64,000 bases of DNA, from the NCBI RefSeq assembly GCF_010983895.1, contig NZ_CP048836.1:1178001-1242000 (forward strand), written 5' to 3'. Both the position numbers and the translations under genes were made by a program. A model generated the notes under the pieces. The model had not been told where the DNA came from and made no database searches. It saw only the letters and a program-made list of their open reading frames with translations. Shown piece by piece: positions 4,321 through 8,641 of the stretch (the first letter of the stretch is position 1; each line of letters begins with the position of its first letter). The stretch comes from Nitrogeniibacter mangrovi. GTDB lineage: Bacteria > Pseudomonadota > Gammaproteobacteria > Burkholderiales > Rhodocyclaceae.

Positions 4321-4344
4321 ATGAGGGGCCTTCGGGCCCCTCAT
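4321..4344. terminator. Hairpin with UUCG loop between grxD and the convergent nucleotidyltransferase gene
   Basis: A perfect 10-bp stem (4321-4330 with 4335-4344) closes a TTCG tetraloop. There is no long T-run on either side, so it is a likely but weak bidirectional terminator. It covers the stop codon of the minus-strand gene (4341-4343). Confidence 0.6.
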
Positions 4345-5435
4345 TCCATTCGGGCGTCGGTTTTGGGTGACTCGGTCAGATGCATCCAGGCCTTGCGGGC
4401 GAGGTGTCGTGTCAGCATCCCCATGGGCATGCGCAGGCGGTGTGCGCGCACGTAGACAAGCTGGCGTGCGATCGCCGTGCCCAGGGGAATGCTACCCTCC
4501 GAGGATGGATGGATGGCGCGCATGTACCGTCTCAGCAGCGCGTTGTGTGCACGCTCCCATCGTTTCGCGCCGAATGGCTCCAGTTGTTCCATTGTGCATG
4601 CGTCCGGGAAAAACCGGTTGACGAGTCGCAGCGCCAGCGCCACGGGTTCGCTCAGATCATGGTCGGACGCGGCGGCGGCGAGTCGGTGGAGAAAATCGCC
4701 CGATCCCGTGTTGGATTCGAGCAGGCATGCAATGTCGTGCATGTCTCTGAGGGCGTTGTCGACCTCGCCTTCGTGCACGAGGTGGCAGCAGCTATGAACG
4801 ATGAGATCCTCGGGGCTCGGGGTCATCATGCAGCGGTAGCCGGGCAGTGGAATGGCCGCGTCGAAGATGCGCTCGGGATTGGGGCGGTAGCGCGCCGTGA
4901 GCGGCAGGATGGTGTGATGGACATCGATGACGGTGCCCCTGCGGACATGCATCATCGGGGGGATCTCATGCATCCACTGGCGATAGTAGCGCTGATCGTA
5001 GGCATCCTGCTTGATGGCCGTCCAGCCGCTGACCATCAGGTGCATCTCCACCTGATCCAGCGACGCTCGGGGCACCAGGATGTCAATGTCGCCGAAAAGG
5101 CGGCCATCGGCGGATGCGTGCCGGGCCATGGCATAAGCGGCGCCCTTGAGCAGGACGACGGGTATGTTCAGGTCGGCGAGCGCGTCGTCGATTTGAACGG
5201 CTTCCCAGGTAACCGACTGGCGTTGTCGTCTGCTGAGCATGAGTGCGCCGACGAGATGTCGCGACGGATTGCCTGGCGGGAGGCGGTTGGCCGCGTCCAG
5301 CCTTGCTGCGAGCTTGCCGAGCAGATTGGCGTTGCGCGCGACGGCGATGACACGGCTCCACGCCGCCTCGTCCAGGTGTTCGGCGGTGTCCGGGGCGCTC
5401 AGGAGGGCGACGAGCGTAGCGACGTCGGGCGGCAT
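4341..5435 (-). CDS. Nucleotidyltransferase-fold family protein (NTP_transf_5-like)
   Basis: A 364-residue soluble protein of the uncharacterised nucleotidyltransferase group (Pfam NTP_transf_5). The region at residues 92-122 carries PVVLLKGAAY followed by the metal-binding D-x-D of this superfamily (D116 and D118 in GDIDILV). The C-terminal half (HHTILP, SPEDLIVHSCCHLVHEG) is also typical. The substrate is unknown. Its ATG directly follows the TAA of the HprK-like gene with no gap, so the two are almost certainly co-expressed. Genes of this family recur beside HprK-related and PqqD-like genes, which points to one joint modification system; the chemistry is inference. Confidence 0.82.
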   Translation of the reverse strand: MPPDVATLVALLSAPDTAEHLDEAAWSRVIAVARNANLLGKLAARLDAANRLPPGNPSRHLVGALMLSRRQRQSVTWEAVQIDDALADLNIPVVLLKGAAYAMARHASADGRLFGDIDILVPRASLDQVEMHLMVSGWTAIKQDAYDQRYYRQWMHEIPPMMHVRRGTVIDVHHTILPLTARYRPNPERIFDAAIPLPGYRCMMTPSPEDLIVHSCCHLVHEGEVDNALRDMHDIACLLESNTGSGDFLHRLAAAASDHDLSEPVALALRLVNRFFPDACTMEQLEPFGAKRWERAHNALLRRYMRAIHPSSEGSIPLGTAIARQLVYVRAHRLRMPMGMLTRHLARKAWMHLTESPKTDARME

Positions 5436-6302
5436 TTACGGGGTGCTCTCGACGATCTGCTGGATTGCGTTCAAGCCGTCTTCTGTCGAGCCATATTCGA
5501 TGCGATAGCACCGGGACTGCGTCAGCAGAGCGCATAGGGTCTCGAAGCCGACGTCTCCCATGCGTTCCTGATTGAACGACTGCTGCTGAATGAGCATGAA
5601 GGCCTCGGCACGGGAAATTTCGTCGACCGAGGCCGGGGCGTCCTGACGGAACGTTGGAAATACGATCCAGCCGGCCTGCGCCGTCGCTTCGGCCTGGGCC
5701 ACCGATGATTTCGGGGCTGCCGCATGCGCGACGGTGCCCTTTCGGGTGTCGTGAAAAAGCGGTCCGAGGGAGGCCCCGGGAAAGGCCGAAACAAGGTCGA
5801 TGGACTGATTTTTCAGGCTGATGGGGCGTGGATGCGCCACAAGGCGACCGTCGTCGGGGCGAACGATCGCCAGCTCGTCCGAGAACAGTTGCCAATCACG
5901 CAGGTGGCACAGGGAGGCGCATAGTGTGCTTTTCCCGGCGCCCGGGAATCCGGGCAGGATGACGGCCCGGTCATGTCGCGCAAGCACGGCGGCGTGCAGG
6001 ACCAGATAGCCCAGCGAACGGCTGGCAATTGTCCAGTTGAGCCCCCATTCGAGCAGTGGTGCGGCCTGGTCGGCGGGAAGGGGCAGGAAGGGCGTCTGTG
6101 AGTCGACCTGAAACCGGACCTGTTTGCGCCAGAGGCGTCTGACGCCCTTGCCGGGCAGGAGCTGAACGTCGAAATCGACAAACGCATCCGATGACAGGCG
6201 CGCAAATCCTTCGTAAAAGCGGTCGAGATGGCTCCGGACTTCCGGAAACGACGATTGAACGCGGACGTTGAACGGGGGGATGCGAATAATCGTGTCGAGC
6301 AC
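5436..6302 (-). CDS. HprK-related kinase (HPr-rel-A type)
   Basis: A 288-residue protein related to the C-terminal kinase domain of HPr kinase/phosphorylase. It has a P-loop GFPGAGKST (residues 118-126) preceded by YLVLHAAVLA, a Walker-B-like FSDELAIV (140-147) and a KGTVAHAAAPKSSV segment (188-201) like the substrate-site region of HprK. No HPr gene is nearby, so the target is probably not HPr. The start is uncertain: GTG 6302 lacks a Shine-Dalgarno, and the frame upstream runs ten more codons to the TAA of the PqqD-like gene. It has a CTG preceded by AAGAG, and family members usually carry extra residues here. The nucleotidyltransferase gene follows directly. Confidence 0.82.
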   Translation of the reverse strand: MLDTIIRIPPFNVRVQSSFPEVRSHLDRFYEGFARLSSDAFVDFDVQLLPGKGVRRLWRKQVRFQVDSQTPFLPLPADQAAPLLEWGLNWTIASRSLGYLVLHAAVLARHDRAVILPGFPGAGKSTLCASLCHLRDWQLFSDELAIVRPDDGRLVAHPRPISLKNQSIDLVSAFPGASLGPLFHDTRKGTVAHAAAPKSSVAQAEATAQAGWIVFPTFRQDAPASVDEISRAEAFMLIQQQSFNQERMGDVGFETLCALLTQSRCYRIEYGSTEDGLNAIQQIVESTP

Positions 6303-6332
6303 GGGAGGGGGCTTGAGCCTCAGTTGGCGCTC

Positions 6333-6641
6333 TTAGTCGCTGGAGTCGCGAAATATATCAAGCTTGATCAGCTGTTTCAAAGCGGTTTCGGCGTCGTCCC
6401 GAACCTCCGGGGGCACGGCCTCGATCAGGAATTCGGCCGGGATGGCGTGCGCTGAGTGCATCAGATGCTCGATCCACTGCCGTGCCGTCGGCGCGATGAC
6501 CCAGTAGTCACCGGAGTTGCGGTCGAACAGGATGCTCGGCTCGTCTTCCTGCCATTCCGGTGACAGCGCCAGCGACCGCCCCGGATGAATGGCCACGCAC
6601 GCGGCGCGCGCGCCGACAGAGGCCAGTACCGGGTCGGTCAT
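6333..6641 (-). CDS. PqqD-family protein of the HPr-rel-A type
   Basis: A 102-residue protein with the PqqD-like winged-helix pattern: an N-terminal strand region (SILFDRNSGDYWVIAPTARQWIEHL), then a helix and a C-terminal segment (ETALKQLIKLDIF). PqqD proteins bind precursor peptides and present them to modifying enzymes. No radical-SAM gene is near; the partners here are the HprK-like kinase and the nucleotidyltransferase downstream, and an exported Cys-rich protein 18 bp upstream. I infer a peptide- or protein-presenting role. The ATG at 6641 lacks a strong Shine-Dalgarno. Its stop TAA (6335-6333) is in the same frame as the kinase gene. Confidence 0.75.
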   Translation of the reverse strand: MTDPVLASVGARAACVAIHPGRSLALSPEWQEDEPSILFDRNSGDYWVIAPTARQWIEHLMHSAHAIPAEFLIEAVPPEVRDDAETALKQLIKLDIFRDSSD

Positions 6642-6659
6642 GGGACGATTGTCAGTGTC

Positions 6660-7478
6660 TTACTTGGACGTGCACCACTGGATGTTGAGATCCGCATTGA
6701 TGTCGTACATGCCATCGAGATACGCCACGAACGATGACGGCGTGAAGGCGTTGGTGCCGCAGGAACTGGACAGGCTGTCCGGGCACCACGTACCGGTCGT
6801 CATCAGGCTCACGCCTGCCTCGACAACCTGTTGCGTCGTCAGGGCATAGTCCGGGAAGGCGAGCGAATTCAGGTAGGCCGCGCACAGGTGCCACAGCAGA
6901 TGCCCCTCCTGGATGCCCGCGTCTTTCGGGAATGCCAGCACGCCCCACAGACCCCAGTCGGAGGGATTGATGGTGTAGGGGCCTGCCGAGCAACCGATGG
7001 TGTTGCCCTTGCGTACGCCCGAGTAGGACGTCAGGAGACTGGTCGCGGCAGAACCGAATACCGAGTCGACGGTCGTGCCCTGCGTGCAGATGTTGTCGGG
7101 GCTGATGCCGCCGAGGCCGGTCGGGCACTGGGCGACATTGACCAGCGTCGGCGGGGTGGCGCCGACCCAGGCGTTGAAATGCTGGGGGTTGCGCCAGAAG
7201 CCCGGGGAGCGCCCGCCCGAACACGGCGGAGGGGCATCCCGGTTGGGACTCGTGTTGCCGCTGACCATGGCCGACGGGCTCTGGCAGATGTTGGTGCCAA
7301 GCGCCGTCTTGGCGCTGACCGCCATGAGAACGCCGACGCCGGCTCCGCCGATCAGGCGACGCCGGGAGTTGCGCGTGACCGCCTCCGCCTGAGTGGGCTG
7401 GTTCGCCTCGTCGTGCTCGATGTGCTTGTGCGTGTTCATAGGTATCCCGATGTCGTTCTGACCCTGAGACCTGTGCAT
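6660..7478 (-). CDS. Exported Cys-rich protein with SPGFW motif, first gene of the HPr-rel-A-like cassette
   Basis: A 272-residue protein of unknown function. A long polar N-terminus leads to a twin-arginine-like signal (SRRRLIGGAG, residues 38-47) and a hydrophobic stretch (42-60), so Tat or Sec export is likely. The mature part contains nine cysteines, Gly/Ser/Pro-rich loops and the motif GGRSPGFWRNPQHF (88-101). That motif recalls the G-[FY]-W-[KR]-[NT] motifs of surface proteins. ATG 7478 is preferred over the internal ATG 7439 because GGAGG precedes it by 9 nt. The AT-richer 7479-7741 upstream is probably its promoter region. It may be the substrate of the downstream modification genes (inference). 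Confidence 0.7.
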   Translation of the reverse strand: MHRSQGQNDIGIPMNTHKHIEHDEANQPTQAEAVTRNSRRRLIGGAGVGVLMAVSAKTALGTNICQSPSAMVSGNTSPNRDAPPPCSGGRSPGFWRNPQHFNAWVGATPPTLVNVAQCPTGLGGISPDNICTQGTTVDSVFGSAATSLLTSYSGVRKGNTIGCSAGPYTINPSDWGLWGVLAFPKDAGIQEGHLLWHLCAAYLNSLAFPDYALTTQQVVEAGVSLMTTGTWCPDSLSSSCGTNAFTPSSFVAYLDGMYDINADLNIQWCTSK

Positions 7479-7487
7479 GACTGAGTG

Positions 7488-7492
7488 CCTCC
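7488..7492 (-). promoter_or_regulatory. Shine-Dalgarno GGAGG deciding the start of the exported protein
   Basis: On the minus strand GGAGG lies 9 nt upstream of ATG 7478. The alternative ATG at 7439 has only a weak GGGA in front of it. The 263-bp stretch 7479-7741 is AT-rich compared with its surroundings, including a T-run at 7590-7597, and holds no gene that I can see. Confidence 0.65.
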
Positions 7493-7741: not shown

Positions 7742-8641
7742 TTATCGGCAGGCCAGCAGCCAGTCGATCTGCCTGACGGTTTCGCGCAGGTAAGCGTGAC
7801 CGAACAGGACGACATGGTTGAGCAGATGGTAGCAACGATAGAGACGGTCGCGGATTTCATAGCCGGGGCGTGGCGGCCTGGCGCGGCGGTAGGCGGCATA
7901 GAAGCTGCTCGGGAAGCCGCCGAACAGGCCGGTCATGGCCAGATCAAATTCCGGATCCCCACGGAACACGGCCGGATCGAAAACCGTCGGCGTGCCATCC
8001 GGTCGGACGCCGATATTGCCGTGCCACAGGTCGCCATGCAGTAGGGAGGCCGGTGTCGCATCGTCGACGAACAGGGCCGGCAGGCGCTCGACCAGCTGTC
8101 GCCCCTTGCGTTCGAGTGTGACATGACCGGCAGCGACGGCGGCCGCGAAGAGGGGCGCGAAGCGCGCGGTGGCGAGGAATTGCGGCCAATGCGCCTGCCA
8201 CCGGTTGTCCAGCGGCGTGCGCCCGAGAAAATTGGATCGGTGCCAACCGAACTGGGCGGAGGTGTCGGCATGCAGTACCGCCAGGGCCTCGCCGGCGCGT
8301 TCGCCGTCCGCCGCGGACTGCAAGGGGGCTAGCGTCACATGCTCGAGGATCAGGCAGGCGTGCGTTGCGTCGGCGCGATGACCGACGAGCTCTGGCACAT
8401 ACAGCGGGCTCGCCCCGCGCAAGGCGTCGAGGCCATCCGCTTCGGCCGCGAACATGTCGTTGCAGGTGTGGCCGCCGAGCTTGATGAAATAGGTGTCGCG
8501 GTCGCCATGAGCCCGGTAGCAGTCGTGGATGCTGCCACCGTGGACGGGCTGCAGATCGATCAGTCGGAATGCTGCGCCCGTGGCGTCCCGGATCGCGGAT
8601 TCGACAAACGCGATCCGGTCCCGGTCCTGGGTGTCAGACAT
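7742..8641 (-). CDS. Fructosamine kinase family protein
   Basis: A 299-residue kinase of the fructosamine/ketosamine-3-kinase family, which phosphorylates sugar-amine adducts on proteins or small molecules so that they break down. The N-terminal lobe has HGGSIHDCYR and YFIKLG. The catalytic loop LLHGDLWHGNI has the expected D204, and the metal-binding FDPAVFRGDPEFDLAM follows (D222). It overlaps the upstream Ser/Thr kinase gene by 8 bp (ATGTCTGA), so the two are translationally coupled. Exact substrate unknown; cytosolic. Confidence 0.88.
   Translation of the reverse strand: MSDTQDRDRIAFVESAIRDATGAAFRLIDLQPVHGGSIHDCYRAHGDRDTYFIKLGGHTCNDMFAAEADGLDALRGASPLYVPELVGHRADATHACLILEHVTLAPLQSAADGERAGEALAVLHADTSAQFGWHRSNFLGRTPLDNRWQAHWPQFLATARFAPLFAAAVAAGHVTLERKGRQLVERLPALFVDDATPASLLHGDLWHGNIGVRPDGTPTVFDPAVFRGDPEFDLAMTGLFGGFPSSFYAAYRRARPPRPGYEIRDRLYRCYHLLNHVVLFGHAYLRETVRQIDWLLACR

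Follow-up and report, generated by a model that had tools for sequence, protein, structure and literature searches.

A Tat-leader protein as the candidate substrate of an HPr-rel-A type gene cassette in Nitrogeniibacter mangrovi

The stretch of DNA analyzed here (the window) comprises 64,000 nucleotides of the Nitrogeniibacter mangrovi genome (contig NZ_CP048836.1, positions 1,178,001 to 1,242,000), and our subject is a cassette of four genes that run unbroken on its minus strand from 7478 down to 4341. The open reading frame (ORF) list gives intergenic gaps of 18, 30 and 0 bp, in agreement with an earlier sequence-only reading that had described four tight minus-strand genes at 4341-7478 with these gaps. 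In the order of the run, the genes encode an exported protein (EX; 6660..7478, 272 aa, ATG start, with a GGAGG at 7488-7492, 9 nt upstream), a PqqD-like protein (PQ; 6333..6641, 102 aa), an HprK-like kinase (HK; 5436..6302, 288 aa, GTG start) and a nucleotidyltransferase (NT; 4341..5435, 364 aa). A promoter and terminator scan gave no signal above chance. We are confident that the four genes form a dedicated four-part system, and we think it likely that this system is a modification line for one exported protein, similar to those that make ribosomally synthesized and post-translationally modified peptides (RiPPs), in which leader binding, serine phosphorylation, capping and twin-arginine translocation (Tat) export would be combined.

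HK scores 364.5 bits against TIGR04352 (HprK-related kinase A; cut-off 200), and its profile matches the HPr kinase chains in the PDB at 5e-4. Its Walker A motif GFPGAGKST lies at 5925..5951 and its S-D-E at 5874..5882, both on the minus strand. In 23 HK sequences G121, G123, K124 and T126 of the former, D142 and E143 of the latter, and H103 are invariant, and H103, K124, D142 and E143 align with the His, Lys and two acids (Asp-Asp) of HPr kinase (1jb1). The motif and the family match bear out the earlier description of this protein as an HprK-like kinase with a full P-loop. An HPr gene lies at 3.99 Mb of the same genome, and one for a full HPr kinase/phosphorylase at 0.45 Mb (309 bits), so that HPr does not depend on HK; the cassette lies at 1.18 Mb, and the earlier remark that it has no HPr gene nearby is correct.

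NT reaches 188.9 bits against PF14907 (cut-off 31.2), carries the motif FGDIDILV and is the one PF14907 match found in the genome. Its D-x-D (D116 and D118; 5082..5090, minus strand) and a third carboxylate, D171 (4923-4925), are invariant in 23/23 rows; the D-x-D of a nucleotidyltransferase had been seen in this enzyme before, and both the conservation and the family match agree with that assignment. A PDB profile search gave no solved relative of NT below E 0.1.

The assignment of PQ takes more steps. Against TIGR04353 ("HPr-rel-A system PqqD family peptide chaperone") it scores 18.4 bits (E 0.0031), which is below the cut-off of 35. All 58 aligned PQ members, the window's included, match this model at E up to 0.01, and PQ is a divergent member of TIGR04353 by position and relatives, not by cut-off. 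With its profile, the best solved relative in the PDB is TfuB1 (E 1.1e-5), and the five best structural matches of its predicted model (pLDDT 90) are TbiB1 with a bound leader peptide, at probabilities of 0.97-1.00 and E values of 0.01-0.09, none below 0.001. We take both TfuB1 and TbiB1 to be lasso-peptide B1 proteins. The NCBIfam lasso PqqD model matches 7/58 of the PQ homologues. On its modelled fold, PQ is a predicted RiPP recognition element (RRE), which would bind a leader. The sequence-only reading had pointed out that the PqqD-like protein has no radical S-adenosylmethionine (SAM) partner. Neither a radical SAM gene nor another cofactor gene was found among the four genes or their immediate neighbors, but none is needed, because the nearest solved relatives of PQ are lasso-peptide RREs.

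Profile searches of all four proteins, which had been proposed with the sequence-only reading, put HK and NT above their cut-offs and PQ below that of TIGR04353, and they found no Pfam family for EX. Judged by these families, the cassette is an HPr-rel-A system (TIGR04352 HprK_rel_A and TIGR04353 PqqD_rel_X, with PF14907), in which the kinase is over its cut-off, the PqqD-like protein is a divergent member and the transferase is adjacent. The NCBIfam family names agree with the identity suggested earlier, with the proviso that PQ falls short of its own family's cut-off. These names do not cover the exported protein with its Tat leader and invariant serines. In the open-licence literature, searched by titles and the starts of abstracts with the HPr-rel-A family names, their accessions and the combination of RRE with HPr kinase, we found no paper on the system. 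What we add is a likely substrate, its leader, two candidate serines and their tie to the kinase.

EX begins with a leader that has a twin-arginine n-region and a hydrophobic stretch; its core, SRRRLIGGAGVGVLMAVSAKTALG, covers residues 38-61 (7296..7367, minus strand). Close behind it lies the predicted modification segment, C65-x3-S69-x3-S73-x3-S77 (7248..7286, minus strand), and then a helical "SPGFW" domain at about residues 86-258 (6705..7223, minus strand). Conservation was assessed in 116 class I homologues that remained after rows more than 80% identical had been dropped, aligned to the EX profile. Only four columns are fully invariant, each in all 115 rows aligned there: the two leader arginines and S69 and S73, two serines four residues apart just behind the leader. 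Other kept positions are the preceding Cys (111/114), the third Ser at +4 (95/115) and a second Cys (98/114). A MAFFT alignment of 64 rows also has S69 invariant, with S73 and S77 conserved in at least 90%. The earlier reading had called the exported protein Cys-rich; 9 Cys are indeed present in the 211 residues after position 61, of which two are conserved in the family. The generic Tat model TIGR01409 (NCBIfam) gives EX 14.1 bits, just below its cut-off of 16.7, and the genome encodes TatC (243.7 bits). Export of EX via Tat is predicted from the leader motif.

In the AlphaFold model of EX the helical core is mostly at pLDDT 83-95, and no known fold was found for it by sequence search or by Foldseek against the PDB. 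Relatives of the helical domain, which carry a GYWK-type motif, are also found in five other proteins that we examined (L188-L192), none of which has a significant leader; a leader-like stretch in L189 was dismissed at E 4, and L190 presumably resembles SdrD-type repeats. The example of paeninodin led us to consider a C-terminal serine as the site of phosphorylation, which we rejected for class I: EX ends in CTSK, and the 47 listed rows differ in their C-termini.

A second class of substrates (class II) consists of 13 leader-bearing proteins with E values of 1e-8 or above to the EX profile, whose mature parts differ from those of class I. In 8/13 of them, versus 1/110 in class I, C-[WYL]-x-S-[FLMV] occurs within 24 residues of the C-terminus, a pattern that was seen post hoc in a small class. 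In both classes a kept Ser often comes behind a Cys, with two or three residues between them. On the kinase tree, class II requires 5 changes versus 11.7 in shuffles, with 0/500 shuffles as low; common descent would give the same clustering, and we do not use it as support.

We next turn to how the four genes recur. Three samples were used: 150 related genomes, the window's own included, of which 50 hold a kinase over the TIGR04352 cut-off (all 50 loci were taken, as relative loci); a scan of named genomes for kinase relatives, from which the best 80 of at least 187 matches were used (named loci); and a phylum sample of 398 genomes, 61 with a kinase over the cut-off and 337 without. An NT homologue lies on the same strand within 200 bp of the kinase in 50/50 relative loci (window included) and 77/80 named loci. 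On the same strand at any distance it is found in 79/80 named loci, 299 bp away in L136 and about 2 kb away in L127, and L162 ends at a contig end. At E<1e-3, EX homologues are present in 47/50 relative loci and PQ homologues in 38/50 (window included); in the named loci PQ is upstream of the kinase in 77/80 and EX within 3 kb upstream in 74/80. The gene set is beyond chance. Elsewhere in its own locus, EX is found in L095, L099, L100, L121 and L137. A leader-bearing protein occurs in 129/130 loci, a count that involves profiles partly built from these loci, and the exception, L058, is cut by a contig end; it is immediately upstream in 117/123. One leader pattern passed over the EX rows of L058, L118, L149 and L153, of which L058 begins inside the gene. 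As a separate observation on EX copy number, L095 and L099 each have two copies, as tandem EX-type pairs downstream of the kinase (L095:2532-4040 and L099:5668-7104).

All 130 loci were selected via the kinase, and therefore tests of co-occurrence that are not conditioned on the kinase weigh more. The EX profile (A1) has 40 rows, all from the 150 related genomes, so that only kinase-negative genomes test it there. It matched 49/150 genomes, 46 of them at the cassette. One match is off-locus, in a 1597-aa frame of G059, and two are in kinase-negative genomes, neither of which we accept as a true EX. Both are weak and lack the leader. The G116 match is to a GYWK domain, part of a 1094-aa frame, with C-x3-S present and the second Ser at +4 missing; in G135 the matching frame is rich in arginine, 89 aa long, and contains C-x3-S-x3-S, which we take to be chance.

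The leader alone separates the genomes more sharply. A leader-only profile (A7; 51 rows, 36 columns) matched 48/50 kinase-positive versus 0/100 kinase-negative related genomes at E<=2.3e-5, and none of the 48 matches is more than about 2 kb from the kinase. Rows of the profile came from at least 24 of the 48 matched genomes, and therefore the negatives are the real control. In 46/48 of the positive relatives there is one leader-type match per genome, and in G040 and G042 there are two. The next match, at 2.3e-4, belongs to a kinase-positive genome and lies outside the locus. Many Tat signals are expected in every genome. We rejected a generic Tat signal as the full account of the leader's conservation, given that the profile splits the two sets of genomes, with and without the kinase, and leaves the E values between 2.3e-5 and 2.3e-4 empty.

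In the phylum sample the EX profile matched 40/398 genomes. Of these, 37 take in the leader, and every one of them falls among the 61 kinase-positive genomes, with 0/337 in the others; 4 of the 37 supplied a profile row. The remaining 3 are in kinase-negative genomes, and their matches begin at about column 72, past the leader and the serines. Fisher tests gave 3e-37 and 3e-36, treating the genomes as independent though they are related. The tabulation of the exported protein against the other genes that had been proposed earlier thus has the leader tracking the kinase, and the claim that the three families recur together holds in the locus counts; a failure of the families to co-occur, which would have spoken against a dedicated system, is not what we see, and ordinary HPr, whose phosphorylation by HK would likewise have counted against it, has a kinase of its own. 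In five genomes of the phylum sample (G217, G229, G271, G170 and G333), the leader-type match and the kinase are on different contigs, and these are either unlinked substrates or assembly breaks.

In the scheme that we propose, EX would be synthesized with its N-terminal twin-arginine leader, and PQ, as the RRE, would hold this leader in the cytoplasm and pass the precursor to HK. Using ATP, HK would then phosphorylate S69 and S73, which closely follow the leader, and perhaps S77; NT would add a nucleotidyl or sugar group onto the phosphate, and the marked, folded EX would exit through Tat, with the leader removed. Phosphorylation at the S69/S73 pair we hold to be fairly likely, and the nucleotide or sugar capping by NT is a tentative proposal. 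The kinase and the transferase depend on cytoplasmic donors, and Tat is able to export a folded, already marked protein. Because of this the Tat leader fits the scheme, which is an argument and not a result.

Precedents for the individual steps come from peptides. The kinase LppK places up to four phosphates on its precursor, the substitution S3A abolishes phosphorylation, and Ser3 is close behind the leader; the LppK cluster also has an RRE and a nucleoside triphosphate (NTP) transferase (PMC13381572). PadeK and PsmK phosphorylate a C-terminal Ser (reviewed in PMC8498205 and PMC9266682), and the addition of one or two hexoses to the phospho-Ser requires PsmN, possibly via nucleotidylation (PMC9266682). 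The sequence-only reading had seen a protein- or peptide-modifying system of unknown chemistry. The first part is supported by the leader-kinase co-occurrence, the RRE-like modelled fold and the separate HPr pair. The second part goes too far, because experiments exist on this set of three enzymes in lasso peptides and in linear polyphosphorylated peptides (LPP), so the chemistry is not wholly unknown.

Several points weigh against this scheme. What the analysis shows is the gene set, its families, the catalytic motifs, the RRE-like fold of the PQ model and the linkage between leader and kinase. The leader binding, the serine target, the phosphate capping, the Tat route and the order of steps are inferred from these and from the precedents, and the export route in particular is read from the leader motif. 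The [Y/W]xxP motif bound by known RREs of this type occurs in 3/123 leader segments and not in the window's leader; missing from the other 120, it was rejected as the binding motif here. The lasso kinases have His-Lys-Asp-Asp (PMC9266682), in contrast to the His-Lys-Asp-Glu of HK, where the last acid is Glu rather than Asp. EX has no conserved C-terminal Ser, its model is uncertain around the leader and the Ser motif, and the invariant serines may be structural. Deletion of LppN had no effect in a heterologous host (PMC13381572), and therefore the precedent for the transferase step is that of PsmN. The leader profile touches 12/100 kinase-negative relatives at 5e-4 to 0.01, each time covering part of the leader, and 24/61 kinase-positive genomes of the phylum sample have no leader match, so that a partner is unproven there. 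Absences in the scans are not exhaustive, because scoring was confined to the top candidates of each genome: at most 6 (phylum, kinase), 8 (phylum, EX), 21 (relatives, EX) and 51 (relatives, leader).

Two described systems resemble the cassette. The LPP clusters (2026, Bacillota) have in common with it a discrete RRE, an HprK-like kinase and an NTP transferase, and the plan of their precursors, a conserved N-terminus and a variable C-terminus (PMC13381572), matches EX. The same source describes an SpI-type leader peptidase, an MsbA-like transporter and YxxPxVL leaders; neither such a peptidase nor such a transporter was found among the four genes and two flanking genes, and EX instead has a Tat-type leader without that motif and a mature part of about 200 aa. 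LPP and paeninodins are called Bacillota-restricted in PMC13381572, whereas the best 80 of at least 187 kinase relatives are from Pseudomonadota (Burkholderiales, Aromatoleum, Propionivibrio, Methylobacter, Magnetococcales and others) and one Phycisphaeraceae metagenome-assembled genome. In lasso clusters of the paeninodin/pseudomycoidin type, the RRE (B1), the HprK-homologous Ser kinase K and the nucleotidyltransferase N resemble PQ, HK and NT. For the B2 leader peptidase (PF13471) the genome has no match over the cut-off of 26, the best being 24.1 bits in an 81-aa frame, and no macrolactam cyclase was found among the four genes and two flanking genes. The substrate of paeninodin-type systems is a peptide with a C-terminal Ser, unlike EX, which is a whole protein without one. 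By analogy, the cassette would work like LPP and paeninodin-type tailoring, yet it is a member of neither.

More speculatively, the Tat signal may double as the RRE leader, with a whole protein of about 200 residues phosphorylated on a fixed Ser pair, capped and then exported through Tat, and HPr-rel-A cassettes, class II substrates and RRE-kinase fusions (described below) may be branches of one widespread route in Gram-negatives; we put this broader picture forward with more doubt than any single step above. If it is true, RRE-guided modification reaches from small peptides to whole Tat-exported proteins, a phosphate-based mark joins the surface chemistry of many Gram-negative bacteria, and PF14907 transferases gain a second setting in which to seek their donor. 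Naming EX, its leader and its serines makes an unexplained gene set directly testable on one protein.

Other explanations deserve weighing against the modification line. PQ, HK and NT could be a maturation or proofreading team that holds the Tat leader until EX folds, with invariant serines that are structural or catalytic. The invariance of the twin arginines in class I would suit this, as would the fact that the leader, and not the mature part, is common to the substrates, the class II mature parts being different; but a kinase and a nucleotidyltransferase with intact catalytic residues would be superfluous, and the two serines are the sole invariant mature positions, while the domain that follows them is found elsewhere without the leader. 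We consider this explanation unlikely. Somewhat less likely again is that the three enzymes turn a peptide or nucleotide into a small molecule or cofactor, with EX as its carrier or as the enzyme that uses it. PqqD relatives serve in pyrroloquinoline quinone (PQQ) synthesis and Tat often exports cofactor-loaded proteins, but the four-gene run and the genes directly adjoining it include no radical SAM or other cofactor gene, and nearly all positive relatives have a single leader-type match per genome, with the two exceptions given above.

The relationship of HK to HprK also raises the idea of a second HPr kinase that tunes the phosphotransferase system (PTS), with EX as a passenger. We regard this as very improbable, since HPr and a full HPr kinase/phosphorylase are encoded elsewhere in the genome and EX, PQ and NT travel with HK. 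The least probable explanation in our view is a toxin-antitoxin-like or defence module, with NT like the AbiEii/MenT nucleotidyltransferases. NT does have weak matches to AbiEii-type toxins (E 0.13-0.42) and to PF08843 (16.7 bits, below the cut-off); against this, the kinase, the transferase and the exported partner stay together across many genera, the leader protein being directly upstream in most loci, and the cassette's stretch includes hemA, prfA, prmC or grxD in 18-23/49 relatives.

Related loci include a variant in which an RRE-like stretch is part of the kinase chain. In L080 (6304-9053) an NT homologue is followed by an HprK-like kinase with an N-terminal RRE-like stretch and then by a Tat-like leader peptide of 57 aa; L081 (6182-9130) has the same order, with a weak RRE-like stretch and again a Tat-leader peptide (57 or 62 aa across the two loci). 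Kinase, NT homologue and Tat-leader gene are as in the cassette. In contrast to it, the kinase is below the HprK_rel_A cut-off (100.9 bits in L080), the RRE-like stretch is fused to it and the peptide is small. The stretch in L080 matches NF033530 at 6e-5, below that model's cut-off, and is weak elsewhere; judging by this match, the fusion would place leader binding and kinase on a single polypeptide. L081 is from the window's own genus (G008), and G008 also carries a window-type cassette. By a crude pattern and by eye, small Tat-like peptides were found beside fusion-type kinases in 6/24 loci (L080, L081, L172, L173, L174 and L179, the last with RKR rather than RR), and since L083 and L185 are the same place, 23 of the 24 loci are distinct. 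The remaining loci gave none or noise, and we treat the small-peptide branch as a lead only. In L172, L173, L174 and L179 the small Tat-like leader proteins adjoin HprK-like kinase and NT-like genes; those of L173 and L174 both contain RRKFLISCGRFAAVTPPAMTLLLS and have glycine-rich tails. In L085 (7237-11152) an HprK-like kinase, a PF14907 transferase, a small RRE-like frame and a family 2 glycosyltransferase stand in series, and this glycosyltransferase could be the sugar-adding partner of such systems.

The cassette is flanked by fructosamine kinase and Grx4 glutaredoxin genes, which are outside it. HemA, PrfA, PrmC or GrxD homologues are on the cassette's stretch in 18-23/49 relatives and 8-10/80 named loci, and because they share this stretch, vertical inheritance of the cassette is suggested in at least some of the family, in contrast to the LPP clusters, which are patchy. 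The fructosamine-3-kinase relative (PF03881, 256 bits) lies at 7742-8641, directly upstream of the cassette, and the same neighbor is found in 7/49 relative loci and 1/80 named loci. A protein-deglycating kinase adjoining a protein-marking cassette may be chance.

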